Positions 635 through 64,000 of a DNA stretch of 64,000 bases are shown in pieces. This stretch comes from Histomonas meleagridis (taxonomy: Eukaryota > Parabasalia > Tritrichomonadida > Dientamoebidae): assembly GCA_020186115.1 (NCBI GenBank), contig WSYJ01000158.1:62001-126000 (forward strand). The letters are read 5' to 3'. Each line of letters opens with the position of its first letter. The stretch's first letter is position 1. The translations under genes and the position numbers were made by a program. The notes beneath the pieces are model-generated. The model was not told where the DNA came from, ran no database searches, and worked only from the letters and a program-made list of their open reading frames with translations.

Positions 635-1681
635 TCACCCAAACGAAGAAAACTTTGGGATTATAGATTCTGACCGCGGCTGCTTAAGTTTTCTTGTTCC
701 AACCGCAAATACATATCCTTCACCACAAACTTCACCACTGATTTCCCTGACTGGTAGCAATGGGTTATCATTTGGAGTTATTGGTGGTTTAAGTTGTATT
801 CGCACTGCCTGTGCACCTGTTACATATGGATGCTTCCTTACTTGATCGATATTATATCTGTCATGGATATCAGGCTTAAGCATATGCATTATCATGTCCC
901 ACAGAAGTGGGTCACATGTCTTAGGAGGTGTGAGTTCAGTTGTGATAATTGATCGAACAATTTCGAAAACACTTTCACCCTGATATGGAAGTTTTTCGAA
1001 GGAAAGAACGTACAGTGTAACGCCAAGTGACCAAATGTCTTCTTTGCCAGGGTCATAATCTTGATCATTTGGAGACCGATCGATCACTTCAGGAGCTTGA
1101 TAGGCTGGTGTGCCAACAACTCGTGCACAGCTTTCAAAGGAGTGACCAATTCCGAAATCGGTGATGAGTGGAGTTCCATCATGACGCATAAGAATATTCT
1201 GTGGTTTTATATCTTGGTGAACAACTCCATTTTTATGTAAGTAAGAAACACCTTCTACAATTTGACTGAATATATAACGAATCTCGTTTGAATTGAATTT
1301 ATGTTTGGTTAAATTCCCGCAATCAGCGTAATCCATAATGAGGTAAACTGATTGATTTTCTTTGACAAAAATTACTTCATGAAGACCAACAATATTTTTA
1401 TGGTGAAGCTTATTCATCATTCCAATTTCTCGTTGAAGAAGAGAAACACCAATTGCTGTCTTTGCTAATTGACGAATTCGAATCCGCTTTGCTGCATATA
1501 GTTCTGATGTTTCGGTATTGAGTGCAAGAAAAACTTTAGAATATGAACCTTTTCCAATTTCAGTGAGGAGTTTGTATTGGTTAATTTTTTTGATGTAATT
1601 ATGTTCGCCATATGTTGTATCGATTGCTACGCTGTGTGTAAATAAGCAGTGATCAAGGCTGATGGAACGTTTCGCCATCAT
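635..1681 (-). CDS. Ser/Thr protein kinase (CAMK/SNF1-like)
   Basis: A 348-residue eukaryotic protein kinase. The Gly-rich loop (GKGSYSKV, residues 43-50), the ATP lysine (AAK, Lys65), the catalytic segment HQDIKPQN, the Mg-binding DFG (ITDFGIG) and the APE-type motif (YQAPEV) are all visible in order. They are followed by DIWSLGVTLYVL and a helix ending in a conserved DRYNIDQVRKHPY. The HRD arginine is Gln, so it is a non-RD kinase whose activity need not depend on activation-loop phosphorylation; Asp, Lys and DFG are intact, so activity is expected. The layout and the insert before DIWSLG resemble CAMK-group (CaMKK/SNF1-like) kinases. The start is a double ATG at 1681. An AAACGATAA motif lies about 50 bp upstream at 1732-1740. 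Confidence 0.9.
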   Translation of the reverse strand: MMAKRSISLDHCLFTHSVAIDTTYGEHNYIKKINQYKLLTEIGKGSYSKVFLALNTETSELYAAKRIRIRQLAKTAIGVSLLQREIGMMNKLHHKNIVGLHEVIFVKENQSVYLIMDYADCGNLTKHKFNSNEIRYIFSQIVEGVSYLHKNGVVHQDIKPQNILMRHDGTPLITDFGIGHSFESCARVVGTPAYQAPEVIDRSPNDQDYDPGKEDIWSLGVTLYVLSFEKLPYQGESVFEIVRSIITTELTPPKTCDPLLWDMIMHMLKPDIHDRYNIDQVRKHPYVTGAQAVRIQLKPPITPNDNPLLPVREISGEVCGEGYVFAVGTRKLKQPRSESIIPKFSSFG

Positions 1682-15787: not shown

Positions 15788-16422
15788 TTAGCAGCTGCAA
15801 CCGCCATCCTGAACTTTCTTTGAGGCGCCAATTGGTACGCTTCCTCCAGACCCGTTTGCGGCTGGTCCGCCAGCACCCTGTTTCTTCTGCATAGCTTCTG
15901 CCATTTTTTGGAATGTCATTTCAATGTTATTATTGTCTTTAGCAGAGGTTTCGATGAATGCAACTCCGTATTGGTTGGCAAGGGCTTGTCCTTCTTCGGT
16001 TGTGACAACGCGCTTGTCTTCAAGATCAATCTTATTTCCAACAAGAAGTCTACAAACATCTGGGGTTGCTAAACGATCAATTTCCTTCATCCAGTAGTTT
16101 ATGTGATCAAATGAATCACGATCAGTTACATCGTAAACAAGGATAATACCATTGCTTCCACGATAATATGAAGCAGTAATTGTTCTGAAACGTTCTTGAC
16201 CAGCGGTATCCCATACCTGCATTTTAACTGTCTTTCCTTCGATCTCAATTGTCTTGATTTTGAAATCAACACCAATTGTTGAGATATAGTTATCACTAAA
16301 AATGTTTTCTGCAAAGCGGATAAGGATACAGCTCTTACCTGTGCCTGAATCTCCAATAAGAAGAACCTCTGATGTAAGAATTAAAATATACTAAAAAGAA
16401 GGTCAAAATCGGTGCTTGACAT
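15788..16422 (-). CDS. Rab1-type small GTPase, two exons
   Basis: Exon 1 is 16392-16422 and exon 2 is 15788-16368, joined across a 23-nt intron, giving 203 residues. All GTPase motifs are complete: P-loop GDSGTGKS (16-23), switch I with STIGVDFK (Thr41), WDTAGQE (63-69), GNKID and ETSAK. The effector-region and RabF sequences (IGVDFKI, KMQVWDTAGQERF, YYRGSNGIILVYD) are those of the Rab1/Rab8 group, acting in ER-Golgi or secretory traffic. The C-terminus ends GGCSC, a CxC double geranylgeranylation signal. Without splicing the first ATG runs into a stop after 13 codons; with it the canonical LLFKVLLIGDSG is restored exactly. An AAACGGTCG motif lies about 60 bp upstream (16481-16489). Confidence 0.95.
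16369..16391 (-). other. 23-nt spliceosomal intron in the Rab1 gene
   Basis: On the minus strand the intron begins GTATAT and ends CTTACATCAG, with an A before it and AG after it completing a Lys codon (A|AG). The 5' end resembles the trichomonad GTATGT consensus. The 3' end resembles the fused branch site plus acceptor CTAACACACAG, shortened by one base. Removal restores the conserved phenylalanine-lysine-valine-leucine run before the P-loop. Very short introns of this size class have, as I recall, been described for Trichomonas. Confidence 0.93.
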
Positions 16423-17379: not shown

Positions 17380-18294
17380 ACAAGGAAAAACTTTCATTTT
17401 ATTTGTTAGTTCCTTAAAAATTCACTCACACATATTACCCACTTCATTTGACGCAAAAGAATTAATAATGAAGGAATTGTATAACTTGTTAAACAATTAA
17501 AATCTTAGTTCAATTATGAAAGTTTGTTTTTATTGAGATAACATTTTATTTACATTATGTATTATACATGAGAAACATTTTTACTTATTATATTAAATTC
17601 GTATTCCGAAATTTATTTAAATTTATTGTTGAAATTTCCAGTGAGTTAAATCCATTTATCTTGATTAGAATAAATTGTATGGACTGCATAAGTAATGTTA
17701 TATTCATCATTAATTTCTGTTGTAGAATCGACATTGAATTCAAATGTATAAATATTAGATGTGCCTTTGTGCTTGATCATTGAGATGAAATGTCATTCGA
17801 TTCAAATCCTTCACTAAGTGAAATGGCAAGTATAAGCGCTAAACTCAAACGAGACAGGGGGTGGGGTTTGAAGGAATTAGGGTTTAAATCCACAATAACT
17901 CTTTATTAAGCTGGGCCTTTTATAATATCAGTGTCAATTGCTTTTTGCTCAAGAAGTAATTTGACTATTTTTTAATTCGTATTAATATTATTTTAAATTT
18001 CTTAATTGGTTACGTAATGCTTCATAAATTATTTCATGAAACAAATGTGTTTCTTTGGTTACAAATTGGTACAAACTAAATGCTTACATTGCTGTTCTTT
18101 TTCTTTTTACTGAAATATGATTATGAACTTATAACCCAAATCATTTCAATGTAATTTCAGTTCAAGTTTAACTTTTGGTCATATGAAAAAATTCATATAT
18201 AATGATATTCATACTACCTTTATTATTACAACACGATGTACTTTTTTCTATAAAACCTGATTTTATATAATTTAACAAAGTTTGTTCGAATTAT
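17380..18294. other. intergenic, nothing supported
   Basis: Over 900 bp without a convincing gene. A patch at about 17780-17900 is locally G-rich and has tRNA-like words (a GGGTTTAAATCC that could mimic a T-loop), but no acceptor or T-stem pairing can be built. Confidence 0.5.
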
Positions 18295-29731: not shown

Positions 29732-30959
29732 ATGCACATGCCTAGTGATGATATCAATACAATAAACACAGGAGATAAAAAATTGAATAATCTATCAACC
29801 AGCTTGAAATTCTTAATCGAGCTTGAGAAAACTATATTCAGTTTAAAAAAACATACAGCCATCCATTAAAAAAGTATTGGAATTATTCGATTCAAATTAT
29901 CCCTATACATTTAATAGTATTATAAGTAACATGGTTTATAATGCATTTTCATCACTAAAACATGAATTTGATATTTACATAAATTTTTTAAAAACACTTC
30001 AAACGAAAGAAGAAGAAAATAATCAAAGTGTCGATAAACTAATTTCAATTTTTATCAAACGTATAACTGAAATCAACACACAAGAATCATATTATTTAAT
30101 GGAGAAACTAATTGAACAAAATTTGATTGATAAAAATATTACCAAAAATATTAAATCGAGATATTTTTCTCATTATCAGGCAAAAGAAGAAAACCAAATC
30201 CACATAGCATTTGGAAATGATCCAAATTTAGAAGAACTTTCAAAGAATGATTGGGAACTTCATAAGAAATATGTTAAAGAAGGACATAATCCAAATGACA
30301 TTGCGAAAATAATTCGAAATGATGAAATAGAAAAACTTCAAGAAATATCATCACAAATAAATTTTGATTTTAATCAAACAATTGAACCATCACTTTATGA
30401 AAGATGTTCATTTATTAATCAAAAGAATGTTTCATTAATTGATTATGCAGCATTTTTTGGATCAGTTAAATGTTTTAAATATTTACTTATGAATAATGCA
30501 AATGTAAATAATACAGGTAAATATGCAGTTGCAGGTGGAAATGAAGAAATAATTCATTTATGTGAACAAAATCATTCAACATTTGAAGGTGCATATGAAG
30601 CTTCAATAGAATTTCATCGAAATAATATCTTTAAATATATTTATGATAACAAATTAGAAGAAATACGACCAAAGAAAATACTTCAAACGCCTGGAGATGA
30701 AACTAATCATTTGGTAAGTTTTTGTATCAAAAAAGATAATTATGATATTTCAGCGTTTTTGGAAGAAATGGGAATTAATGTAAATGCTGATAATATAAAT
30801 GAATCAGCAAGAAATGGAAATTTATTTCTCTTGAAATATTTCCTTCAAAATAATCAAATTCCAAAAAATATTTTGCCATTTGCTTCAGAATCAGGAAATA
30901 GTGAACTTGTGAAATATGTTTTAGAACAAAAAGAAATTGATGTTAATGCAAAAGGTATT
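29732..30959 (+). CDS. ankyrin locus C, first segment (frameshifted)
   Basis: Begins at ATG 29732 (MHMPSDDINT) and would encode about 410 residues, but the frame changes at an A7 run (29845-29851), after which the reading continues NIQPSIKKVLELFDS. The N-terminal 200 residues are helical. Then come DWELHKKYVKEGHNPNDIAK and SLIDYAAFFGSVKCFKYLL, the trichomonad domain (DUF3447-like) that caps many ankyrin proteins, followed by divergent repeats ending QKEIDVNAKGI at 30959. Likely an intracellular protein-binding protein. The A-run frameshift may be real or an assembly error. Spaced cassettes and a terminal exon-like segment follow. Confidence 0.75.
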
Positions 30960-31450
30960 CATTTGAATAATTTAGAATATGTTTTCATAATTTAGAATAT
31001 GTTTTCATAATTTGGAATATGTTTTAATAATATTTTATATGATTCAATAATTTGGAATATGTTTTAATAATTTATAATATGTTTTAATAATTTTATATAT
31101 GTTTTAATAATTTGAAACAGCACTTCATATAGCCGTAAGAAATAATAATATAGAAATAGTAAAATTACTTTTAGATAAAGAAGGAATTGATGTTAATGCA
31201 AAAAATATTCATTTCAATCATTTAATATATGTTTTAATAATTTGGAATATGTTTTAATAATTTTATATATGCTTTAATAATTTGAAACAGCACTTCATAT
31301 AGCAGTTAGAAATAATAATATAGAAATAGTAAAATTACTTTTAGATAAAGAAGGAATTGATGTTAATGCAAAAAATATTCATTTGAATAATTTTGGATAT
31401 GTTTTAATAATTTGTAATATGTTTTAATAATTTGAAATAGGTTTTAATAA
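30960..31450 (+). repeat. locus C cassettes and spacers
   Basis: Two 99-nt cassettes, 31111-31209 and 31281-31379, each one 33-residue ankyrin repeat (start TTT GAA ACA GCA CTT; end AAA AAT ATT). Spacers are 151 nt (30960-31110), 71 nt (31210-31280) and 71 nt (31380-31450). The long spacer is built from about 18-nt units like ATATGTTTTAATAATTTGGA. All spacers have stops in the cassette frame. Confidence 0.9.
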
Positions 31451-31756
31451 TATTTAACTGCAATTCAAATTGCACAAGAAAAAGGTTACACAGAAATAGT
31501 AAATTTACTCCGTGAAAAAAGTATAAACGAAAATTTTCAATCAAAATCTTCTTTTGTAAGCATCAAATCTTCATTTTCGATAAGAAATGGAAATGAAGCG
31601 TATATTGCTAATAATCAAAATCAACTTGAAGATCAAATTTTCGCAGTAAATACTAAAAAGAAAATTACAAAAAGTGTTGATGTAAACACTCAAACATATG
31701 AAAACAAACATATTCGTAAAGCAAAATATAAATACATAAAAACAATAATATTATAA
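31451..31756 (+). CDS. locus C terminal segment: last ankyrin plus tail
   Basis: An uninterrupted 102-codon frame without an ATG at its start. It opens with a partial ankyrin repeat (TAIQIAQEKGYTEIVNLL) in the same phase as the cassettes. It continues into a 75-residue Ser/Asn/Lys-rich tail ending KYKYIKTIIL and a TAA at 31754-31756. A long open tail that depends on the upstream cassette phase is hard to explain unless it is joined to the preceding segments in the mature message. Confidence 0.7.
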   Translation, partial: YLTAIQIAQEKGYTEIVNLLREKSINENFQSKSSFVSIKSSFSIRNGNEAYIANNQNQLEDQIFAVNTKKKITKSVDVNTQTYENKHIRKAKYKYIKTIIL

Positions 31757-33199: not shown

Positions 33200-36100
33200 T
33201 TAATTTGTTTCTAACTTTTTGTTAATCAATTTAACAATTTCATTATGACCATTTTTAGTTGCATATGTAAGAGCTGTTTCAAATATTTTGATTAAATTCC
33301 AAGTATTATAACGAAACATTATATTATGAAAATAAATATTATCTTTAGCATTAATATCGATTCCCTCTTGTTCAAGAAGTAATTTAGCCGTTTCTACATT
33401 ACCTTTATTAGATGCCTTAATAAGAGCAGTTTGAAACAATTTTTAAAAATTCCGAATATTATTTTGAATTTTCAAATCATAAAAAGAAACATTAAGCAAT
33501 ATAATTGAATATTTCTAGCGTTAATATCAATTCCTTCTTGTTCAAGAAGTATTTTAACCAATTCTTTGCTATTTTTGAATCCCGTCGATGCAATAATAAG
33601 AGCAGTTTCAAATAATTTAAATAATTTCCAAATATTATTTTGAAATTTGAAATTATTAAAATAAATATCAAATAAAACAAATAGACATCTTTAATATTTA
33701 CATCAATTCCTTTTTGTTCAAGAAGTAATTTAAATATTTCTAAATTGCCACGACTTGTTGCCAAAATAAGGCATGTATTAAAAAAATTGATTAAACTTTA
33801 AATTTATCTTTAAAACAAAAAAATACATAAATAAACTAAGAATTTATCAAGTAAATATCTAATTCATTGATATCAATTCCTTCTTGTTTAAGAAGCATTT
33901 TAACTATTTCTTCACTACCCATCCAACATGCTAACATAAGTGCTGTTTCAAGTAATTTGAATAATTTCCAAATATTATTTTAAAATATCAAATTATTAAA
34001 ATAAATTGAAAATAAATTATGTTAACATTACTTCTAACATTAATATCAATTCCTTCTTGTTCAAGAAGTAATTCAACTATTTTTGCATGACTATAATAAG
34101 ATGCCCACATAAGTGCTGTATTAAATAATTTATATAATTTCTGAATATTATATTGAAATATTAAATTAATAAAATAAATATTAAGTAAAACAACCAAATA
34201 TCTTTAGCATTAATATCAATTCCTTCTTGTTCAAGAAGTAATTTAACTATTTCTATATTTCCAGTTATTGATGCATGTATAAGTGCTGTCATAAATAATT
34301 TAAATAATTTCTGAATATTATAGTGAAATATCAAATTTTTAAAATAAATCTTAAATAAAACATATAAATATCTTTAGCATTAATATCAATTCCTTCTTGT
34401 TCAAGAAGTAATTTAACTATTTCTATATTACCGCTTCGAGCTGCTATTGAAAGTGGCCTAGGAAATACATTAAATAAACGCCAAATATTCTTTTGATATA
34501 AAAAATTATTAAAACAAATTGAAAATAAAATTTATTATCAAAATCTTCATTATTGATATCGATTCCTTCTTGTTCAAGAAGTAATTTAACTATTTCTGTA
34601 TGACCATTTTTTAATGCACATATAAGTGCCGTTTCAAACAATTTAAATAATTTCCAAATATTATTTTGAAATAAAAAATTATTAAAATAAATTATAGTAC
34701 TACCATTAATATCAATTCCCTCTTGTTCAAGAAGTAATTTAACTATTTCTATATGACATTTAAATGATGCCCATATAAGTGCAGTTCGTAATAATTTAAA
34801 TAATTTCTAAATATTATTTTAATATATTAAATCATTAGGATATATATTAAATAAATCATATAAATATCTTTAGCATTAATATCAATTCCTTTTTGTTCAA
34901 GAAGTAATTTAACTATTTCTAAGTTACCACAATCAGATGCTTTCATAAGTGCTGTTTCAAATAATTTAAATAATTTCCAAATGTTATTTTAAAATATTAT
35001 ATTATTAAAATAAATTTTAAATAAAACAAATTTATATTTCTTGCATTAATATCAGTTCCTTTTCGTTCAATAAGAATTTTACATATGTTTTCTAAACCAT
35101 TATTGCAAGCACATAACAAAGCTGTGGCAAAAAATTAATATAAAATCCAAATATTTTTTGAAAACAAAAAACATCACAATAAAACATTTTATAAAGCTTA
35201 AAAACATTAATTATATTTGTATCAATACCTTTTTGTTCTAAAAGCAATTGTGCAATATCTGTTGATTTATTTTGACATGCAATTAGAAGTGCTGTATTAA
35301 ATAAACTTAATAAACGCCAAATACTTAATTAAAACTTCAAACAATTTTAATGAATTTTGAAATAATTTTAAAAATATTTTGTGCATTAAGATCAGTATCT
35401 TTTCTTTCTAGTAATAACTTAATAAGTTTAATATCACCATTTTTACAAGCCATCATTAATTGTGTATTAAATACTTAAAATCAATTCCAAATATTAATTT
35501 GATACATGAAATAAACAAATAAAATATCAAATAAAACAAATTAATATCAATTGTATTAAAATCAAAGTCTTTTCTTTCTAAAAACATATCCAAAACAGCA
35601 GCAACCTCCTGTTTATCTCTATGTCTTAGCTTTTGCAATGCACTAAATGCTGTTTCATGAATTTATAATAAATTTCAAACAACATTTGAAAACTTTGAAA
35701 CATTTAAACTTATTTTATTTCTAATATTTACATTAATTCCATCATATTTTAAAAGTAATTTGATGACATCAAATCTACCATATATACATGAATAAATTAG
35801 AGCAGTATTAAATAAAATGAAGATATTCCAAATATAAATATCAGACTTTAAAAAAGAATAACAAACAGCAAAAAGCAAAAATTAACATCTTGAGCATTTA
35901 CATCAATTCCTTTTTGTTGAAGAAGGAAATTTACAAGTTCAAAATGTTTATTAGGTGAAAAACAATTAATTGCTATAATTAATGGTGTTTCAAATTGATG
36001 AAATAAATTCCATTAAAAAGAAATTAACATAAAATCATAAAAACATAAACAAAATAAAACATAAAAATATTTTTCTCATTTATATCGAAATTATGATTTT

Positions 36101-37382
36101 CAAGTAATGATTTAACAAGATCAATATTGAATTCTTGACAAGCAATCATTAATAAAGTATTAAAACATGTAAATAAATACCAAATATTAATATGAATCAT
36201 AATATTAATAAAACAAACATTAAGTATAATGATTAAACATCTTTTGGATTTTCAAAGCCTTCTTTCTTCATGAGATTTTTAATAAATTCATATTTGTGTG
36301 AATAACATGCAATCATAGAGAATGTTAGAAACGATTAAAATGATTTCCAAAATTGTTTTAAAAACAACTTAATATTATAACAAAAATTGTTTCTTAAAGT
36401 GTAATCGATTTCTTTTTGTTCAAGTATATTAAGCATATCATCAGGAAAATGATTAAGTGCATAAGCATAAGCAGATTGAAATATATTTATGGAATTCCAA
36501 ATATTTATTTTAAATAGTTAATATAATATAAAAACATTGAAAAAATTTAAAAAATATCTGTTGCATTAACATCAATATCATCTTTTTGAAGAAGTAATTT
36601 CACAGCTTCATAAAGCCCTTTTTGAACTGAATATAAAAGTGGAGTAAAATACCAACAAAAACAACTCCAAAAAATATTTTAAAACATAATTAAATAAGAA
36701 AGGTTAATATCTTTTGTATTTACATCAATTCCCTTCTGTTTAAGGAGAATTTGTATCATATCAATAAAACTATTTTTACAAGCATATGAAAGCACTGTAT
36801 CAAATTAAATAAAGTAATTCCAAAAATTTAATTTTAACATATAATAATATAATGAAAAATACTTATTAAAAAATGTATATTTTTAGCATTTATATCAATT
36901 CCTTCAGTTTCAAGGAGTAGTTCAACAATTTCTTTATGATTAAATCTACAAGCACATATGAGAGGTGTATTAAATATTATTAATAATTTCCAAATATTTA
37001 CATTAAACATAATATAATTTACCAAAACATTGAAACATTTTAATTAATATCTTTTGCATTGACATCTAATCCTTTTGACAAAAGTATTTTAACCATTTCA
37101 ATTGCACCAGAATAAGATGCCCAAATTAAAAGTGTATTAAATATTAAAAAGAAATATTAATTATTTTAGAAAAACTGCAACAACAAAAAACAAACTTTAA
37201 TAAAACATATAAAATATCAATTACATTAATATCAACATCTTTTTGTTCTATAATGTATTTAAATAAATTTAATTGATTATTCATACATGCATTCATTAAA
37301 ATCGTACGGAATCATTAAAATAAATTCCAATTAATAAAATAAAACCATAAAAAATAGAATTATACTTCAATTAAATTATATT
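33200..37382 (-). repeat. locus D: array of about 25 spaced ankyrin cassettes
   Basis: On the minus strand about 25 cassettes follow the first segment. Measured ones: 34540-34638, 34367-34465, 34197-34295, 34027-34125, 33854-33952, 33684-33782 and 33338-33436 are 99 nt; 33508-33612 is 105; the terminal 33200-33283 is 84 nt and carries the stop (EIVKLINKKLETN). Each encodes one repeat of the type ETALI.A...GH.EIVKLLLEQEGIDINAKDI. Measured spacers from the 3' end are 54, 71, 71, 71, 74, 71, 71, 74 and 54 nt. The last 54 nt of a 71-nt spacer is conserved and contains AATAATATTTGGAAATTATT before the next TTTGAAACA. The 71-nt type adds 17 nt at its 5' side and has a TGA in the cassette frame. Confidence 0.9.
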
Positions 37383-38642
37383 AATATCTTGATGATTAAT
37401 ATCAATATCACTATTCTCAACAATATATTTTACAATATCAATATTTCCAGAATTACCAGCTTCTATTAATATATTTATTGGTAATAAATCAGTATTATAA
37501 TAACGCTTAAAAAGATAAAAATTACATTGACTTACAGTTGTTGTCAAAATAAGCTCATTTGCTTTTAATCCTTTTTCTTCTAAATATGAAAGAGCCTTAA
37601 AGTTATAATATTTAATACTAAAAACTCCTAAATCAATTAAACTAATTGTTTTGTTTTCATTTTTAGGTGGAAAAAGAAAGAAATTATTTACAGGTCCAAA
37701 ATTGGAGAAATTCCCTTTCTTTGGTTGCATAGGTTTATTGTCTTCATTCTTTTTTTCAATTTTCTTTTCATAAATATATTTAAAGATATCATTATGATGA
37801 AACTTAATTGCTGCTTCATATGCACCTTTAAATGATGAATGATTTTGTTCACATAAATGAATTATTTCTTCATTTCCACCTGCAACTGCATATTTTCCTG
37901 TGTTATCTAATTTTGCATTATTCATAAGTAAATATTTAAAACATTTAACTGAAGAAAAAAATGCTGCATAATCAATTAATGAAACATCTTTTTGATTAAT
38001 AAATTCACAACTTTCATAAAGTGATGGTTTTATTATTTGATCAAAATCAAAATTTGTTTGTGATGATATTTCTTGAAGTTTTTCAATATCATCATTTCGA
38101 ATTATTTTCGCAATTTCATTTGGATTATGTCCTTCTTTAACATATTTCTTATGAAGTGCCCAATCATCTTTCTTCAACTCATTAATGTTATCAAAGAAAT
38201 CTTGATTATATTCATTGTGTAATGGTCCTCGAAAACATGATTTTTCGGTCTCGTGATGGGAGAAAAGTAATGACTCCTTTTGTTTGTCATAGCTTATATC
38301 TATCAAATTTTGTTCTGCCATCATTTCGAGAAAATAATTTGATTCTTTTGTTTTTTGTGAACAAAGTGTAGAGGCCAATGAATTTAATATTTGGTTTTTA
38401 TTTATTAAATTCTCTTTTATCAAATATGATTCTAATATGTTTAAATAAGATATGAATATACTTAATTCTTTCTTTTGTGATAAAAAAGAATAATAAACAA
38501 GATGGGAAATAATAATGAAAAATGAATCTTTATAATTAGGGTCAAAAAGATTAAATGTTGATTTAGCAGAAATTTCGATATTTTCAGCATTGAGACTAAA
38601 AATAATTTCCTCAAATGAAATAAGATATTTTTCTTCTTCCAT
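37383..38642 (-). CDS. ankyrin locus D, first segment (intact)
   Basis: An unbroken frame of 420 codons from ATG 38642. It has a helical N-terminal domain of about 150 residues, then DWALHKKYVKEGHNPNEIAK, LIDYAAFFSSVKCFKYLL and GKYAVAGGNEEIIHLCEQNH (the DUF3447-like signature). A Lys/Asn/Phe-rich linker follows, then degenerate ankyrin repeats ending DIDINHQDI at 37383, in the phase used by the cassettes downstream. This is the only first segment with a full array and no frameshift, so it is the best candidate for a functional member. It is head-to-head with the pseudo-Rab gene at 38699 (56 bp between start codons). Confidence 0.85.
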
Positions 38643-44500: not shown

Positions 44501-45877
44501 GGATCAATTACACAACCGCACCCCAAACCTCCAGATCCTCTGAATCGATTTTTAAAAAATAAATTTAGACCGATAGAGCACGATCCCACTTTTTAAAGGA
44601 AAATATTATTTTTTACATTTGATTTTCAATTAAAATATAAATGACACCTATTTTAAATGTAAATAGAAAATAAAAAATGGTTTAACAAAATACAGTCCGA
44701 TTGAAAAGCATCAAAAAAGTGATGCGTGTCACAATAATTTATTGAATACTTTATATTAAATATCAAATATCCAAAATACAAATTTTTATTAAATTAAATA
44801 AATAAATTAAATTAAATAAATAAATAAATTATTTAAACAAATTTTAAATAAAACAAAGTAATAACAAAATATTAATATCAATTCCTTCTTGTTCAAGAAG
44901 TAATCTAACTATTTCTGCAAATCATATCAATATTTCCGAATATAATTTGAAAACACCAAATGATTAAAATAAATACAAATTAAAACAAATAAATATCTTT
45001 AGCATCTATATCGATGTTTTTTTGGATAAAAAAGAACTTTTGCAATCGCATAATGACTATGTCGTATTGCACAATGAGGTGCTGTTTCATTAATTTCATA
45101 TAAATTACAAAATATATTACACAGTAAATATTTAATGGAAAACATTTTTACTATTTTTATATTAATACATAGTGAAGAATTATTAAATATAACAATTTTA
45201 TTAGATTAAAAAATGACATATTATTAGAACTTTAAGAAGCATCCGACTTCTAATTTTAGAGTAAAGATTTGAAATTTATCTATTATTTTTATTGATAAAA
45301 ATTACTTCTCACATTATGTGAACTATTATAAATACAATCTATATTCACTATCATGACACATAATGTAAATACTATAGAATAAGTTATATCAAATGTAAAA
45401 TCCGAATGAAACAAAACATATTTAAAAAAAATTAATAAGAAATGTATTGCTTTGGAATATATATAATATTCGAAGTTATCGAAAATAAATATAAGCCCTA
45501 ACATATTATTGATGTAAAACATGATTTCTAAGGTCACAGAACATTAACGTTTATTAAATATTTTTTAAAACAAAAATCGAAAAGCCATATCACTCACTTT
45601 GATTAGTGAAAGATCAAAGAATAGTTTACACATTCATAAAGTATTCAATAAATTATTGTGACACGCATCACTTTTTTAATGCTTTTTAATCGGACTGTAT
45701 TTTGCCAAACCGTTTTTCATTTTCTATTTTCATTTAAAATAGGTGTCATTTATACTTTTATTGAAAAAATAACAATTTCTTTTAAAAAGTGGGATCGTTT
45801 TCTATCGTCCTAAATTTGCCCTTTAAAAATCGATTGAGAGGATTTGGAGGTTTGGTCTGCGGTTGTGTAATTGATCC
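44501..45877. mobile_element. non-autonomous TIR element carrying ankyrin debris
   Basis: Left inverted repeat 44501-44750 and right inverted repeat 45640-45877 are near-identical when one is reversed; both begin GGATCAATTACACAACCGCA. The flanking octamers AAAACGAG (44493-44500) and AAAACAAA (45878-45885) fit an 8-bp target duplication. The paralogous uninterrupted site at 62159-62166 reads AAAACAAG with matching flanks on both sides. The roughly 890-bp interior has no transposase frame. It does contain minus-strand ankyrin cassette remnants with spacer (about 44875-45095). Long TIRs and an 8-bp duplication suggest a Mutator-like or hAT-like non-autonomous element; Mutator-like elements occur in trichomonads. 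Confidence 0.85.
44875..45095 (-). pseudogene. ankyrin cassette remnants inside the element
   Basis: Two decayed minus-strand cassettes. The one near 44875-44930 still reads EIVRLLLEQEGIDI; that at about 44998-45095 begins ETAPHCAIRHSHYAIAKVL and then loses frame. They are separated by typical cassette-spacer sequence (ATTTAATC.. and TTTCGGA-type block reversed). They were therefore captured together with a spacer from an ankyrin array. Confidence 0.75.
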
Positions 45878-46124: not shown

Positions 46125-47446
46125 ATGTCGAAACAAGAGATTACAAATCAAGAAAATTCTTTAAATAAGGTAAGCAAATCTAATTACATGGAATTACTAA
46201 CTTCACTTGACAAAATCATATTTAATTTAACTGAAGAAAATATTGAAACTTCAATTCAACAAACAATGAAATTATTCGATTTAACTTTCCCATATTCATT
46301 TAATACCGTTATATGCAATTTAGTTTTTTCTTCATTTTGTTCTCAAAAATCTTTATTTGATAAATATTTGAATTATTTACTCCAACTTCAAAAGAGAGAA
46401 GAAGAAATTGACAAAAACATCAAAATCATTGATATTTTCGTTAAATGTATCATTAAAAATAAAACACAAGAATCATATTATTTAATTGAGAAAATGATTG
46501 AACAAAATTTAATTGATGCAAGCATTACTAAAAATATTAAATCGAAATATTTTGCACATTATAAAACAGAAAAAGAAAACAAAACATATCCTCTTGGTTC
46601 TGCAGAAAAAAATTTTATAAATGATTATGAAAAACTTTCAGCAAATGATTGGGAACTTCATAAGCAATCAATTAACGAAGGAGTTAATCCAAATGAAATT
46701 ATGAAAATAATTCGAAATGATGACATTGAAAAACTTCAAGAAATTTCATCACAAAATGATTTTGATTTTAATCAAACGATTGCACCATCAATATATGAAA
46801 GATGTGACTTTATTAATAAAGAAAATGTTACATTAATTGATTATGCAGCATTTTTTGGATCAGTTAAATGTTTTAAATATTTACTTATGAATAATGCAAA
46901 ATTAGATAACACAGGTAAATATGCAGTTGCAGGTGGAAATGAAGAAATCATTCATTTATGTGAACAAAATCATTCATCATTTGAAGGTGCATATGAAACA
47001 GCAATTGAATTCCATAAAAATGATGTATTTAAATATATTTATGATAATAAATTAGAAAAATTGGATGAAACCAATCAACAAAACTCAGCTCCAAAAATTG
47101 GATATCAAAATCTACGAACGTTTGGCACTTCAATTTCATTTGGAAACCAACCATTTAATTTAACTAGAGGAGGAACTCCAACAACGAATATAAATGATTT
47201 GAGATATTTTTGTGTTGATAGTAGTAATTTTGAAATTTTATCATATTTAGAAGAAAAAGAAGTGAAAATTAATGATTCTATTATTAATGAATCTGCTAAA
47301 AATGGTAATTTGTATCTTGTTAAACATTTTCTTATAATAATCAAATTCCAAAAAATATTTTGGAGTTTGCTATTGGATATGGAAATGTTGAACTTATTAT
47401 ATATCTTTTAGAACAAGAAGGAATTGATATTAATGCAACAGATGTT
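46125..47446 (+). CDS. ankyrin locus A, first segment (one frameshift)
   Basis: ATG 46125 (MSKQEITNQENSLNK) opens a frame of about 400 residues: a helical N-terminal domain, DWELHKQSINEGVNPNEIMK, LIDYAAFFGSVKCFKYLL, AVAGGNEEIIHLCEQNH, a Gly/Phe/Thr-rich linker and degenerate repeats. Near 47336 one base is missing relative to the duplicate at 63650 (CTTATAATAATC against CTTATAAATAATC), which shifts the last 37 codons; past it the repeat continues to EGIDINATDV at 47446. AAAACCGTTG lies about 20 bp upstream. The 5' region is nearly identical to locus B, so the duplication is recent. Confidence 0.8.
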
Positions 47447-50400
47447 TAATTATGTTGTTTAAATTTTAAATATTTGATTTGATATTTTAAAATAATATTT
47501 GGAACTTATTTGAATTATTTAATACAGCACTTATGTTTGCATCTAAAAATGGTTACACAGAATTAGTTGAATTGCTTTTAAAAAATGAATTCATTGATTT
47601 TGATGCTGGAAATGTATATTTATTTTATATAGAATTTGTTTTAATATCTTGATGTTTTAAGATAATAATTAGAAATCATTTAAATTGTTTGAAACAGCAC
47701 TTATATGCGCATGTAAATGTAATCAAACTGAAATTGCAAAAATGCTTATTAAAAATGTTCTTGAAATCAATTCTCAAGATAATGTATATTTTGGTGTTTT
47801 AAATTTTGTTTTAATCATTTAAAATTTATAAAAATAATTTCAAACAGCATTACATTATGCAGTTAAACATAATAATATAGAAATAGTTAAAACACTTTTA
47901 GAAAGAAATGATATTAATGTTAATGTAATGAATATTTATTTTATTTATACCAAATATGTTTTTATAATTTAACGTTTATAATAAGAGCTTTATGTTTAAC
48001 TTTATGATTTATAATTTATTTGAAAAATTTATAATTTGTTTTATTCATTTTTAATTTGTTTTATTTATTTAATATTCGTCACAACATTTTGGAATATGTT
48101 TTAACAATTTGAAATATGTTTTAATAATTTGTAATTTATCTTGATGGTTTGTAATTTCTTTTGATAATTTAAAATTTGTTTCAACAATTTAATATTTGTT
48201 TCGATAGTTTATAATTTGTTTTAACAATTTGAAATATGTTTTATTAATTTTGTATTTGTTTTAATATTTTGATATTTGTTTTAATAGTTTAATATTCGTT
48301 TTATTAATTCAGTATTTATTCTAAAAGTTTTATGTTCATTCTAATAATTCAAAATTTGTTTTAATAATTTGGTGTATTTTTTCATAGTTTAAAATTTATA
48401 TAAATGATTTGATATTTATCTTAATAATTTAAGATTTCTTTTAATTATTTTATATTTCTTCTCAGTATATAGTATTTATTTTCATTATTTGAAACACCAC
48501 TACATTTAGCAGCTAAAAACAATGATATTGAATTAGTTAAATTACTTTTAGAACATAAAGATATTGATGTTAATGCAAAAACTGATATTTTTATTGATTG
48601 TTTGATGTTTATTTATATAGTTTAATTTTCATTTATATTGTTTGATATTTATTTTGTAAATATGATGTTTATTTAAGTAATATGATATTTTTTAAGATAA
48701 TTTTGGATTTATTTTTTGTATTTGATTTTTATTTCTTTGATTTCTAGTTTGTTATACTAATTTATAATTTATTTTGATGATTTGAGGTTTGTTTTAATGT
48801 TTTAGTGTTTGTTTATATGTGTTGATATTTATTTTGAAAATTTTATATTTGTTTTTGTTGTTTATAATTTGTTTAAATAATTTTATGTTTGTTTTTATAA
48901 TTCATGATTTATTTGAATGTTTTTGTATTTGTTTTAATAATTTAAAGTTTGTTTGGATGATTTTATGTTTGTTTTATTGATTTTATATCCATTTTGATCA
49001 TTTGGAATTTGTTTTCTTAATTTGAAACACCACTACATTTAGCAGTTAAGAACAATAATATAGAAATAGTCAAATTACTTTTAGAGCATGAAGAAATTAA
49101 TATTAATGCAAAAACAATTTCTATATTTAATTTTATATATATTCCAATAATTTAAAATTTGTTTTAATATAATATTGTTTGTATTAATAATTTATGGTTC
49201 AACTTAATAACTTAAAATTTATTTGGAAGATTTTGGATTTGTTTTAGTAATTTATAATTTATTTTATTAACTTGAAATTTATTTGAAAGATTTTGGATTT
49301 GTTTTAAGAATTTCTTATTTATTTTAGTGATTTGAAATTTATTCTAATAATTTCCGATTTATTTGGATAATTTGAAATTTATTTAAATAATTTTATGTTT
49401 ATCTTGTTAATTTGGTGTTTGTTGTCATTATTTTATGTTTGTTTAAATTATTCGAAATTTATTTTAATCATTTGATATTTGTGTTAACAGTTTGAAGTTT
49501 GTTTTAAAAATTTAATATTTAAATTGAAGTTTCAAACTTTATTTTGTTAATTTGTAATTTATTTAATATTTTTAAAGTTTGTTTTCACTATTTTATATAT
49601 GTTTTTTGTATTTAAAATATGTTTTAATAATTTTCAATTTATTTTAAGTATTTATAGTTTGCTTAAATAATTTTATATTTATTAAACAAGTTTGAAATTT
49701 ATTCGAATGATTTGGAGTTTATTTAATATATTTAAAACACCTCTTCACATTGCAGTTAAAAATAATAACATTGAAATCGTGAAATTACTTTTAGCACAAA
49801 ACAATATTAATATTAATGCAATGAATTTTTATTTTACTAGTTTGATATTTATTTAAAACATAATTTAAAATTTCTTTAAACAATTGGAAATTTATATTAA
49901 TATTTTCATGTTTAACATAATGATTTAGATTTTATTTGCATATTTTAAAATTTGTATTCATAATTTTTTGTTTATATTTATGATTTGAAAATTGTTTTAA
50001 CAATTTAAAGTTTGTTTTAGTGATTTGAAATTTATTATTTGAATTTTATATTTCTTTACCATATTTGGAAATTATTTTCATTATTTGGGAATTATTTTAT
50101 TAATTTCAATCACCATTTCATTTAGCAGTTAAATATGATAACATAGAAATTGCCAAATTACTTTTAGAACATGAAGGAATTGATGTTAACGAAAAAGGTA
50201 TTTCTTTTAAATATTTGACATTCATTTTAATAATTTTATGTTTATTCCAATGATTTGGTATTTATTTTCAGTGTTTAGAATTCATTTTATTCATTTAAAG
50301 TTTGATTGAATGTTTTGATATTCATATTAACTATTTAAAGTTAATATAGTAAATTTAAAGTTTACTTAAGTAATTTGGTATTTATTCGAATCATTTGACA

Positions 50401-51513
50401 TTTGTTTTAACAATTTTATATTCATTTTAATAACTTGAAATTTAATTATTTGTTTTAAACTTTGTTTTCAAAATTTTATATTTGTTTTAATTGTTTTATA
50501 TTTATTGCAAGAATTTCGAATCGATTTTAATAATTTTTAGCGCCATTACATATTGCTGTTGAGAATGATAACATAGAAATTGTCAAATTACTTCTTGAAC
50601 AAGAAGGTATTGATGTTAATATAAAAACTATTTATTTTAATTATTTGATATTTATTTTAATAATCTGTTGTTTATATATATGATTTAGCAAAATTTATTG
50701 TTTAAGATTTATATAATTTACTTAATATTTATATCAATGATGTGGTGTTTATTATAATAACTTGAAACAGCACTTCATATCGTAGCTAAACACGATTATA
50801 TTGATATAGTTAAATTACTTCTTGATAAGGAAGAAATTGATATCAATATCAAAAATATTTGTTTTCTTTACTTAATATTTATTTGATTTATTTAATGGAA
50901 ATTATTTATAATATATGAAACAGCACTTATTTTGTCTGCTTTAAATAGATGCATAAAAGTAGTACAATTACTTCTTGAACAAGAAGGAATTGATGTTAAT
51001 GCTAAAAATATTTTTATGTTTTATTTAATATTTGTTTTAATTACTTAAAATTTCAAAATAATATTTGGAATTTATTGAAATTTTTTCAAACAATACTTAT
51101 TATAGCATAAAAAAAAAAAAAAAATCAAATTGTTGAATTACTTCTTAAAAAAGAAGGAATCGATATCAATGTTAAAGATATTTCCTTATTTTTGTTTTAT
51201 GTTTATTTTAGTATTTTTAAAATTTCAAAGTGTTATTTGGAAATTATTTTAAATATTTCGAACAGCACTCATTTGTGCAGCTGCATATAATCGCATAGAA
51301 ATAGCCAAATTACTTCTTGAACAAGAAGGAATTGATATTGATGCTAAATGTGCTGTTAATTGTTCATATTAAAAGTTTATTATTATAAAATAAAATATCA
51401 AAAATAATATTTGGAAATTATTTAAAATAAATTGGAATGCACTTATATATGCTACTAAAAAAGGTCACATGGAAATTGCCAATTTAATTCATGATAAATG
51501 TGAAGCAATTTAA
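47447..51513 (+). repeat. locus A: 13 cassettes with short and very long spacers
   Basis: Cassettes start at 47518, 47688, 47838, 48488, 49021, 49731, 50104, 50534, 50761, 50914, 51084, 51256 and 51430. All are 99 nt except the terminal one (84 nt, stop at 51511-51513). Spacers are 71, 71, 51, 551, 434, 611, 274, 331, 128, 54, 71, 73 and 75 nt. The long ones consist of degenerate 17-20 nt units of the type TTTGTTTTAATAATTTGAAA. Cassette 51084-51182 has an in-frame TAA beside a 15-A tract, although its length is still 99 nt. Confidence 0.92.
47937..50533. repeat. degenerate 17-20 nt tandem units in long spacers
   Basis: The spacers 47937-48487, 48587-49020, 49120-49730, 49830-50103 and 50203-50533 are composed almost wholly of variants of (A/T)TTTRTTTTAATRATTTGAA. 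The unit resembles the sequence immediately before each cassette (TTTTAATAATTTGAAACA), suggesting growth by tandem duplication of the spacer's 3' part. Confidence 0.85.
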
Positions 51514-56268: not shown

Positions 56269-56628
56269 TTACATGGAAACATTAATATCAAATCCTTTTT
56301 GTTCAAGAAGTAATTTAACTATTTCTGTATGACCATTTCGAGATGCCCACATAAGTGCTGTTGCAAATAATTTTAATAATTTTCAAATATTATTTTGAAA
56401 TATCAAATTATTAAAATAAATATTAAATAAAATAAAAAAATATCTTTAGCATTTATATCAATTCCTTCTTGTTCAAGAAGCAATTTAACTATTTCTGTGT
56501 GACCTTTTTCAGATGCTCTCATAAGTGCTGTCCATAATAATTTAAATAATTTCCAAATATTATTTTATATTAAAGAATTAAAATAAATTCTAAGCATAAC
56601 AAATAAATAATATTAAATAACATAAACA
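56269..56628 (-). repeat. locus E: two ankyrin cassettes and spacers
   Basis: Spacer 56538-56628 (91 nt), cassette 56439-56537 (99 nt), spacer 56368-56438 (71 nt), then the terminal cassette 56269-56367, whose 33rd codon is a TAA (ending GFDINVSM). This is a complete short array that ends in a stop inside the last cassette, as in the longer arrays. Confidence 0.88.
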
Positions 56629-57774
56629 AATATTTTTGGGATTAATATCAATTCCTTTATTGTCTATAATATATTTTATAAATTCAACATTGTTTGATTC
56701 CGAAGCAAAAATCAAAATATTTTTTGGCATTTGATTTTCTTTCAGGAAATATTTCATAAGAAATATGTTTCCATTTTTTACTGATTCATTAAATATAACG
56801 TCATTAATTTTCATTCCATTTTCTAGTAAAAAAGAAAAAATATCATAGTTATTATATAAAACACAACATTTCCCTAGTTCCATTATATCTTCAACTTCAA
56901 TATTTTTCTTTTCATAAAAATAATGAAAAATATTATTTCTATGATATTGGATTGATGTTTCACATGCAACTTTAAACGATGGATTATCTTGTTCACATAA
57001 ATGAATGATTTCAATATTTCCTCCTGCAATTGCATATTTTAACGCATTGGTTATATTTGCTTTATTCATAATCAAAAACTTAAAACATTTTATAGAGCCA
57101 AAAAATGCTGCATAATCAGCAAGTGAAGTCCAAGAATTGTAAGTGATTGAATATCTTTCATAAAGTGATGGTCGAATTGCTTGATTAAAATCGAAATTTG
57201 CGTGAGATGATATTTCTTGAAGTTTTTCTACTTCATCATCTCGAATTATTTTTGCGATTTCATTTGGATTGACCCCTTCTTCAATTAATTTTTTATGAAG
57301 TTCCCAATCATTCTTTGATAGTTCTTCATAATTTTTTGAAAAATCATCTTCTATTGTGTCTATATAAAATATTTGACCTTTTTTTGTATGACGATGTGCA
57401 AAATACAAAGGATTATTATTGTATTCAATAATTTTTGGATCCATGTAATTATGTTTCATAATGAACTCGAGAAAGTAATTTGATTCTTGCAATCCAAAAT
57501 TCAATTGAAGAAATTTTACAAAAAACTCAGTCATTTTGTCCACATTCTCCTCAATGTTTCGTAAAAAATTCATATAAATTTTAAAATTCTTCACTTGAGA
57601 AACAATAGATGCGCATAATAATTGACTGATAATAAGTTTGAAAGAATATGGAAAATGATTATCGAAAAGGGTTGTTACTGTAGCTTGCGCTGTTTCCTTG
57701 AAATTATTTTCGTTTAAATTAAAAATTGCATGTTGAACAATTTTTAATATTTCCAAATAGTTTTTACTTTGCAT
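56629..57774 (-). CDS. ankyrin locus E, first segment (intact)
   Basis: 382 codons without interruption from ATG 57774 (MQSKNYLEILKIVQ). It has the same helical N-terminal domain, DWELHKKLIEEGVNPNEIAK, LADYAAFFGSIKCFKFLI and YAIAGGNIEIIHLCEQDN blocks as the other loci, then degenerate repeats ending GIDINPKNI at 56629. Divergence from loci A to D is spread along the gene, so it is an older paralogue. Likely an intracellular interaction protein. An AACGATA site at 57799-57805 lies within 31 bp of the start. Confidence 0.85.
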
Positions 57775-61999: not shown

Positions 62000-63908
62000 T
62001 TTTGTTGTTAAAAGTATTTTTATTATAAATATTTTTTTTTAAATTAAAGTGATGAACATATCAGGTAATGCATTTTTAAATTGTAACCAGGAAAATATCT
62101 GAGAAGGGTGAAATTTTGAGATCTTTCTTTGTGTTTCCCATAAATTTGCTGTTGAACAAAAACAAGAAGCCGTTTTATCTTATTCAAAGACCATTGTCAC
62201 TTTTATTTCAAACCATTGGAATTTCTCTCTTTCATATCATATGATGAAATTTAGCGGTATTCTAGAACACTTTTCAAATTTGAATACTTAATTAACATGT
62301 TGATTGCTAATTGCAATTCAATTTATCAAAAAAAGTTGGTCGTTCGAATTAATTCAATTTTGAATATGAAAACCGTTGTTCTCACCATATTGTTTTATGT
62401 CGAAACAAGGGATTACAAATCAAGAAAATTCTTTAAATAAGGTAAGCAAATCTAATTACATGGAATTACTAACTTCACTTGACAAAATCATATTTAATTT
62501 AACTGAAGAAAATATTGAAACTTCAATTCAACAAACAATGAAATTATTCGATTTAACTTTCCCATATTCATTTAATACCGTTATATGCAATTTAGTTTTT
62601 TCTTCATTTTGTTCTCAAAAATCTTTATTTGATAAATATTTGAATTATTTACTCCAACTTCAAAAGAGAGAAGGAGAAATTGACAAAAACATCAAAATCA
62701 TTGATATTTTCGTTAAATGTATCATTAAAAATAAAACACAAGAATCATATTATTTAATTGAGAAAATGATTGAACAAAATTTAATTGATGCAAAGCATTA
62801 CTAAAAATATTAAATCGAAATATTTTGCACATTATAAAACAGAAAAAGAATTCAATGATATATTCACTGGCTTTGGTTTTAAAAATCCATTTGAGAATAA
62901 ATTTTTAGGTAATTATAAAGAAATCTCAAAAAACAATTTCGAGCTTCATAAGAAATATGTTAAAGAAGGAGTTAATTCAAATGAAATTGCGAAAATAATT
63001 CGGAATGATGATATTGAAAAACTTCAAGAAATATCATCGCATGTTAATTTTGATTTTAATCAAACGATTGCACCATCAATATATGAAAGATGTGACTTTA
63101 TTAATAAAGAAAATGTTTCATTAATTGATTATGCAGCATTTTTTGGATCAGTTAAATGTTTTAAATATTTACTTATGAATGACGCTAGATTATTTTTCAC
63201 AGGTAAATATGCAGTTGCAGGTGGAAATGAAGAAATCATTCATTTATGTGAACTAAATCATTCATCATTTGAAGGTGCATATGAAACAGCAATTAAGTTT
63301 CATCATAATGATATCTTTAAATATATTTATGATAATAAATTAGAAAAATTGGATGAAACCAATCAGCAAAGTTCTGATGGTAATTCTTGTAAATCGCCAT
63401 TTGGTAGTTTTTCTTTTTTTGGAAATAGATTTCAAAATCAAACAAATTTTGGAAGCTTTGGAATATCTTCTATGTATAGCAGATTTAAATCTGAAACTCC
63501 AACAACGAATATAAATGATTTGAGATATTTTTGTGTTGATAGTAGTAATTTTGAAATTTTATCATATTTAGAAGAAAAAGAAGTGAAAATTAATGATTCT
63601 ATTATTAATGAATCTGCTAAAAATGGTAATTTGTATCTTGTTAAACATTTTCTTATAAATAATCAAATTCCAAAAAATATTTTGGAGTTTGCTATTGGAT
63701 ATGGAAATGTTGAACTTATTATATATCTTTTAGAACAAGAAGGAATTGATATTAATGCAACAGATGTTTAATTATGTTGTTTAAATTTTAAATATTTGAT
63801 TTGATATTTTGAAACAATATTTGGAACTTATTTGAATTATTTAATACAGCACTTATGTTTGCATCTAAAAATGGTTACACAGAATTGGTTGAATTGCTTT
63901 TAAAAAAA
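61951..63908. repeat. segmental duplication shared with 44.28-47.6 kb
   Basis: From the 3' end of the preceding gene through the 5' part of ankyrin locus B, this block matches 44288-44500 plus 45886-47583, interrupted there by the TIR element at 44501-45877. The match breaks just after GAATTGCTTTTAAAAAA in the first cassette, where the two loci diverge completely. Confidence 0.88.
62397..63768 (+). CDS. ankyrin locus B, first segment (one frameshift)
   Basis: A duplicate of locus A from ATG 62397. An extra A near 62793 (CAAAGCATTA against CAAGCATTA in A) breaks the frame after about 130 codons; the second frame then runs intact to EGIDINATDV at 63768, including the region that is frameshifted in A. 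Two internal blocks are unlike locus A: the segment after the first KTEKE (about 50 residues) and the Phe/Gly-rich linker (FGSFSFFGNRFQNQ). The blocks around them are almost identical, giving a patchwork. Confidence 0.8.
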
Positions 63909-63956
63909 GGAGCAAATTGTAATGAAGAAAATCTTCATTTTAATGATTTAAAATAA
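63769..63956 (+). repeat. locus B: 71-nt spacer and terminal cassette
   Basis: Spacer 63769-63839 is 71 nt. The cassette starting at 63840 opens as in locus A, then changes after LLLKK to GANCNEENLHFNDLK and a TAA at 63954-63956. This is another array that ends with its stop inside the last cassette, here the only one. Confidence 0.88.
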
Positions 63957-64000
63957 TTTACTTTAAATGCTTGAAATTCGTTATCATAAAATAAAACTTA

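Follow-up and report, generated by a model that had tools for sequence, protein, structure and literature searches.

Ankyrin repeat arrays of Histomonas meleagridis as candidate genes with single-codon exons set between 17-nucleotide elements

Introduction

Considered here is a window of 64,000 nucleotides (nt) from Histomonas meleagridis, i.e., positions 62,001 to 126,000 of contig WSYJ01000158.1, within which all window coordinates below are counted, and, particularly, the arrays of spaced ankyrin repeats that this window holds. The array called D, on the minus strand, serves as the example. What would be its first exon, at 37386–38642, encodes an N-terminal DUF3447 domain plus a first ankyrin segment and ends at an Asp codon (open reading frame, ORF, 37371–38642, with PF11929 and Ank matches), the first loop beginning at 37385. 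There then follow, over 33200–37385, 25 ankyrin cassettes along with the loops between them, as delimited by a cassette profile and by parsing of the loops; one of these cassettes is diverged and one is terminal. That terminal one, a putative exon at 33200–33277, is a cap repeat with its own stop, array ends having been judged by eye.

A typical loop of array D, at 34956–35035, is 80 nt long and consists of four elements of 17 nt (17-mers) plus the single codons AAA, AAT, GGA and GAA, as read on the minus strand. The elements lie, in order, at 35019–35035, 34999–35015, 34979–34995 and 34959–34975, with the codon for the conserved hairpin Gly at 34976–34978, as placed both by triplet statistics and by loop parsing. 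Next to this loop is a typical cassette, likely an exon of 30 codons running from Thr to Asp (34866–34955), the surrounding 33 residues of which give a Pfam Ank match. Other loops of the array differ in length, e.g., 63 nt at 34633–34695 (four codons and three 17-mers) and 83 nt at 34460–34542 (five codons and four 17-mers). It is argued below that these single codons belong to the ankyrin repeats and that the 17-mers are probably removed from between them.

The genome assembly searched comprises 43.3 Mb in 121 contigs. The sample analyzed in detail consists of the window plus 77 fetched loci, about 350 kb in all, which are taken from that single assembly and were in part picked by the pattern itself. 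The description of this genome (PMC8529796), for which a transcriptome was used in annotation, gives 573 introns in 11,119 genes, with at most one intron per gene, and its main text lacks the word ankyrin. A second report (PMC10063853) has, in its accessible portion, one mention of ankyrin, in a proteomics table, and names a public Histomonas RNA read set, PRJNA935845, such that at least one exists. Among titles and abstract openings returned by searches of an open-access library, none describes 17-nt elements of this kind.

Cassettes, spacers, and coding constraint

The original prediction described array D as about 25 cassettes of 99 nt, following an intact first segment and separated by A/T-rich spacers of fixed length, 54, 71 or 74 nt, with stops in most. 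The cassette count holds: The profile finds 24 (two as partial matches), and the 230-nt interval 36326–36555 harbors one further, diverged cassette. So too do the fixed lengths. With the cassette boundaries as originally drawn, 17 of the 23 resolved spacers of array D are 71 nt, three are 54 nt, two are 74 nt, and one is 72 nt, a count that omits the 221-nt interval containing the diverged cassette. Across all arrays of the window 71 nt is seen, as counted by eye, in 24 of 42 resolved spacers (omitting isolated remnants and one interval within an N-terminal exon), with equivalent figures of 186 of 271 gaps for a first set of loci and 206 of 309 unique intervals for the window and 77 loci together. 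Stops are common as well, with an in-frame stop after the cassette in 146 of the 213 spacers no longer than 110 nt. Three of three internal cassettes tested exceed the PF00023 cut-off, and the terminal cassette falls below it.

To assess the cassettes independently of their translations, spacers were located using a DNA profile that is blind to coding, and the intervals between spacers were then tested. Of the unique inter-spacer stretches of 60 to 140 nt, 125 of 127 are divisible by three. A stop in frame 0 is present in only two of the 114 stretches of exactly 99 nt, versus 102 and 114 of them for the alternative frames. The predicted constancy of cassette frame thus is borne out, but not the division at 99 nt, as the first three and the last three bases of such a cassette are parts of the flanking 17-mers. 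Codon by codon, framework residues are nearly invariant, and a few codons vary several-fold faster than does the spacer; these few presumably are ankyrin binding-surface positions. In 100 bootstraps over 33 loci, nonsynonymous divergence (pN) for framework codons was 0.065–0.089, spacer divergence was 0.119–0.144, and pN for the variable codons was 0.398–0.455, keeping in mind that the latter codons were selected post hoc, following the codon-wise comparison, and that their synonymous divergence (pS) is raised as well (0.268–0.357).

The array ends are consistent with such constraint. Among 33 tabulated rows, less five ordinary genes and one remnant, there are 27 spacered arrays with a reachable end. 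As judged by eye, 19 of these close in a shortened cap repeat possessing its own stop, and the other eight end in a full repeat or enter a spacer. The kept frame of cassettes, together with most arrays ending in this manner, makes decay unlikely.

The 20-nt lattice and its hairpin codons

Long spacers are repeats of a 20-nt unit. Their autocorrelation has maxima at 20, 40 and 60, and that of the common class of spacer at 40 and 20. Measured from the closing Asp codon of one cassette to the opening Thr codon of the next, the loop is 80 nt, i.e., 4 x (17+3), in 201 of 287 loops. When close pairs of loops are compared, most spacer bases differ in no more than about 20% of pairs, versus 35–65% for the triplets at 34–36 and 74–76 and 36–50% for positions 14 and 16. 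The triplet at 54–56 is GGA, and the variable triplets and this GGA are exactly 20 nt apart. Triplets with that spacing are the four residues that otherwise are missing from the ankyrin hairpin, D-x-x-G-x-T, a motif which is obtained only if lattice triplets are read. The 170-nt unit thus comprises an uninterrupted block of 30 codons and four lone ones, with a 17-nt element in front of each of the latter, giving a repeat period of 34 residues (102 nt of the 170).

Stops were counted over all twenty registers of the 20-nt unit, with expectations derived from column composition. The 197 unique 80-nt loops have no stops among 788 lattice triplets, versus 58.6 expected, and 13 longer loops have none among 141, versus 16.0 expected. 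Pooled, this is zero of 929 with about 75 expected, which is not the behavior of a minisatellite lacking coding constraint. By triplet position, one through four, stops are zero in each case versus 5.5, 16.9, 4.3 and 17.2 expected. The stop-free lattice register, moreover, is that possessing the most varied triplets (highest entropy) of all of the registers; register 0 is also free of stops, but with only 0.5 expected. If consideration is limited to 43 loops that are less than 70% identical, then there still are no stops among 172 triplets, with 11.0 expected and a minimum of three seen across 2000 column permutations. Of 938 lattice codons, 572 are one change away from a stop. For array D, the 17 loops of 80 nt have zero stops among 68 lattice triplets and Gly third in 12 of 17; in this small set registers 0 and 15 are stop-free as well, and the remaining registers have from 1 to 32 stops.

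The residues encoded are those of ankyrin hairpins. In the lattice these are N/K/D/E first, D/Y/N/W/K second, Gly third (159 of 197), and K/E/N/D/R fourth. In 26 contiguous repeats, picked by motif from seven ordinary ankyrin loci, the equivalent positions are K/N/E, N/D/K/E, Gly (21 of 26), and E/K/R. The lattice, the sense codons that occupy it, and the kept frame of cassettes are, that is, found in the statistics of the sequence itself. The spacer consequently is not the single non-coding block that was first supposed, as four codons per repeat lie within the loop.

Loop lengths and the 17-nt element

Loop lengths follow a series of 3c+17i, where c is the number of codons and i the number of elements: 80 (4, 4), 63 (4, 3), 83 (5, 4), and 160 (8, 8), along with, among longer loops, 340 (17, 17), 560 (28, 28), and 620 (31, 31). 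The window's loops of 160, 340, 560 and 620 nt lack lattice stops, and only one of their 84 17-mers falls below the profile threshold. A dynamic-programming parser that accepts only sense codons plus 17-mers above that threshold succeeds with 182 of the 213 lattice loops and with 48 of the 70 remaining loops. The threshold was set using these same 17-mers, so shuffled loops supply the fair comparison, and of these 107 of 1065 and 21 of 350, respectively, are read; for reversed loops it is 21 of 213 and 3 of 70. Loops that are one base off of the lattice may represent assembly errors or, instead, elements of 16 or 18 nt.

The 938 17-mers recovered, 618 of them distinct, open with a purine followed by T, are A/T-rich in the middle, and close with TTT, the consensus being RTTTATTTNAATWATTT. 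They start mostly with ATTT, AATT or GTTT and end with ATTT. The 17-mer as an insertion into normal coding sequence is best displayed by an ordinary ankyrin gene, L042, in which some repeats are contiguous and in two a solitary 17-nt insertion precedes the final loop codon. Two further insertions in this gene are seen by eye, one giving a loop of 63 nt and the other a loop of 64 nt, which is one base off of the series. A model of two introns (51 and 17 nt), as had been reasoned from this gene, has been superseded.

Other arrays and features of the window

On the plus strand, at 29931–31546, an array displays a 160-nt loop (eight codons and eight 17-mers), then 80-nt loops, and then a cap repeat that extends beyond 31546. 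A second plus-strand array, at 46125–51513, has very long loops, recognizable also as 20-nt tandem repeats, with a cap repeat at its end. These loops include one of 560 nt at 47934–48493 (28 codons and 28 17-mers) and one of 620 nt at 49117–49736 (31 codons and 31 17-mers, one being that below threshold). The 137-nt loop at 50630–50766 (plus) poorly fits a simple series of codons and 17-mers. A short array at 56269–57774 (minus) consists of an N-terminal exon, as based on ORFs, and two cassettes. A further array, at 62397–64000 (plus), leaves the window; its N-terminal exon (62397–63771) is approximately a copy of 46125–47411 and is split by a frameshift near 62790, due either to a homopolymer assembly error or to a broken copy.

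Isolated cassette remnants are found at 17915–18013 and at 44859–45090, both on the minus strand. Two of three have stops and none adjoins an N-terminal exon, so these have the look of true decay, in contrast to the arrays. At 15788–16222 (minus) is an ORF that, by eye, is Rab-like but lacks the usual N-terminus; an upstream exon and intron are likely. A scan of the window against Rfam gave no matches.

Spread through the genome, and relatives

Searching the genome with an exact pattern, made up of the end of a cassette, the spacer, and the start of the next cassette, gives 1,925 occurrences, versus zero for a reversed control. The same cassette-end and cassette-start words are found 0 to 29 nt apart only four times, with three of these looking like ordinary ankyrin repeats and the fourth being out of frame. 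In that part of the sample which was not chosen by pattern, 35 of 146 loops match the exact pattern. Extrapolation from this proportion gives about 10,500 loops, whatever their size, a rough figure since those loci were picked for closeness to N-terminal exons.

Relatives of the N-terminal domain are found on short contigs. These are 48–54% identical to P0003, itself one such relative, and the best are 41–47% identical to the window's ORF. Eight of them (P0002, P0005, P0007, P0009, P0010, P0011, P0014 and P0031) stop right after the residue following the cassette Asp or its equivalent, though some of these stops may be contig ends. Among proteins read, two continue across a loop, and in back-translation Thr-Ala/Pro-Leu can be placed at 70 or 80 nt for P0003 and at 83 nt only for P0030. 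With P0003 taken at 80 and P0030 at 83, a GGN is possible 23 nt before the Thr; these contigs may be DNA or RNA. In a Tritrichomonas foetus relative, P0034, the repeats are contiguous.

Interpretation

The explanation I favor, assigning it a probability of roughly 0.6, is that each array is one gene, which would consist of an N-terminal exon, many ankyrin exons of 30 codons, and a cap exon, and in which each repeat's beta-hairpin codons, four in number (x-x-G-x), would stand singly as exons, each after a 17-nt element. That the 17-mers are skipped at some level between transcription and protein, with the single codons retained, is very probable. Removal from RNA, as phase-0, non-GT-AG micro-introns, is the most likely such level and is preferred because start and end are conserved in the elements, whereas the intervening codons are free to vary. 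The excising machinery, presumably, would read the purine-T start and the TTT end. Of the three possibilities initially raised, i.e., unconventional introns, a recombination store, and decayed arrays, the first thus comes closest, though with four or more 17-nt elements per typical spacer rather than one 71-nt intron.

A number of observations weigh against this explanation. Serial exons of three bases are, to my knowledge, unprecedented for any splicing machinery. Thirty-one of the 213 lattice loops and 22 of the 70 others fail to parse; 11 of the 182 parsed lattice loops do so loosely (21–22 codons with just one or two 17-mers). Among the 48 other loops that parse, four are without a 17-mer and eight have ten codons with three 17-mers. 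Of the 24 intervals in array D, the parser reads 16 as anticipated, four loosely, and four not at all, failures there being mostly due to diverged single 17-mers, and a 17-mer falls below threshold in six of the array's 17 loops of 80 nt. Other genes of the sample show no excess of 17-nt gaps (72 joinable frame pairs versus 67–77 at other lengths of the same frame class). Over all codons, pN is 0.155 and pS is 0.150, and wrong frames are lower (0.141/0.239 and 0.155/0.164). As pN is not below pS and wrong frames do better, this overall ratio supports nothing, and the case for coding rests on stops, on the kept frame, and on the contrast of framework with spacer.

Known splicing signals are wanting also. 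A GT-AG pair is possible within 15 nt of the borders in 61 of 255 spacers and impossible in 194. The branch motif CTAAC is in none of the 255, and GTATGT is in two. Folding of 80 of the 206 spacers revealed no RNA structure (mean z of −0.22, versus −0.09 for cassettes), and 162 spacers have no run of complementary, covarying positions. The U2 and U6 of this organism look canonical: There are two nearly identical U2 small nuclear RNA genes with GTAGTA (L079 and L080) and one U6-like gene with ACAGAG (L078), the latter at 43.7 bits, just below the Rfam cut-off of 44. A spliceosome in its known form is unlikely to be responsible, as its signals are lacking. Size alone excludes no splicing, since introns of 15–16 nt are spliced in Stentor (PMC9505925).

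Borders of GT-AG, GC-AG and AT-AC were all considered for the spacers and rejected. AT-AC borders can be drawn for 221 of 255, but these are ambiguous, several placements being possible at once because AT and AC are fixed within cassettes. A canonical parabasalid intron, GTATGT...ACTAACACACAG, is present in L037 (about 1442–1512, reverse strand). Its length is 71 nt, which, as far as can be told, is a chance coincidence. The peptide flanking that intron resembles, by eye, a DHHC-type transferase.

The main rival, though an unlikely one, is translational bypass, in which the mRNA would keep its 17-mers and the ribosome would jump 17 nt after each loop codon. Single-codon steps are natural for a ribosome, and the elements lie strictly between codons. 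Classical bypass, however, needs matching take-off and landing triplets, and these match in only 18 of 954 cases; a stem-loop is absent, and up to 31 consecutive jumps would seem inefficient.

Decayed or silent arrays, amplified as units and with expression limited to the N-terminal exon, are quite improbable. Consistent with silence are N-terminal frames that run to a stop shortly beyond the first segment (382–519 amino acids in length among at least 99 candidates scored in a search for that segment), the stops in a few cassettes (the two of 114), and an overall pN/pS near 1. Contradicting it are the kept frame, lattice triplets that are all sense, cap repeats with their own stops, and framework codons that vary less than does the spacer.

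Single 71-nt introns between 99-nt exons of 33 residues, with spacers otherwise being non-coding tandem repeats, was the explanation adopted at first and then dropped once the 20-nt lattice emerged; I now regard it as very improbable. The prediction that joining of 99-nt cassettes restores a perfect 33-residue period is right in that the junction is stop-free in 255 of 255 spacers, and ankyrin repeats most often have 33 residues. Such joining has no place for the hidden codons, though, and with these the period is 34. Nor does it account for the first three loop triplets being free of stops (0 of 591, with 26.7 expected), for the position of the Gly, or for the 3c+17i series of lengths, and it makes the border codons for Ile and Phe oddly constant.

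Least probable of all is a recombination store, from whose cassettes contiguous genes would be built through DNA rearrangement or element elimination. Though variable surface codons in a conserved frame are reminiscent of antigenic stores, the preponderance of spaced over contiguous forms leaves assembled recipients nearly absent, Histomonas is not known to have a second, rearranged nucleus, and no support was found for DNA elimination.

Known systems and significance

Animal ankyrin genes can have one repeat per exon, so exons there follow the repeat, as would those of these arrays, but such genes have ordinary introns and no known single-codon exons. The tiny introns of Stentor coeruleus are spliceosomal, with GT-AG ends, and are not known to separate strings of single-codon exons such as those proposed for Histomonas loops. 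Programmed bypassing, as by T4 gene 60 and byp elements, skips short inserts between codons as is proposed for the 17-mers, which by contrast have no matched codons or hairpin and are strictly 17 nt. The nonconventional introns of euglenids are, as reported, like the 17-mers in their non-canonical borders and unknown removal, but these form an RNA structure joining their ends, of which none was found in Histomonas spacers. By size, Stentor introns at 15–16 nt are near to the 17-mers (PMC9505925). Trichomonad spliceosomal introns of types A and B also are short and also are found in parabasalids, 63 being given for Trichomonas vaginalis, but, as described in PMC12316389, these are bounded by GT-AG, show a 5' motif that is extended and a branch site that is merged with the 3' end, and are at least 23 nt long, features that the 17-mers do not share.

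The balance of evidence leans, with no great firmness, toward a new class of intervening sequence. Its members would be 17 nt long, phase-0 and non-GT-AG, would number tens of thousands in this one genome, with four elements in most of the roughly extrapolated 10,500 loops, and would be excised with such precision that lone codons remain as exons, in runs of as many as 31. If removal is from RNA, then exons of one codon are possible, these would be a new kind of split gene, and a genome thought to be intron-poor, with its 573 annotated introns, would conceal tens of thousands more. Required would be either a removal machinery not known to me or, instead, a ribosome that jumps repeatedly. This poultry parasite, in turn, would possess a large repertoire of ankyrin proteins whose surface residues are variable.

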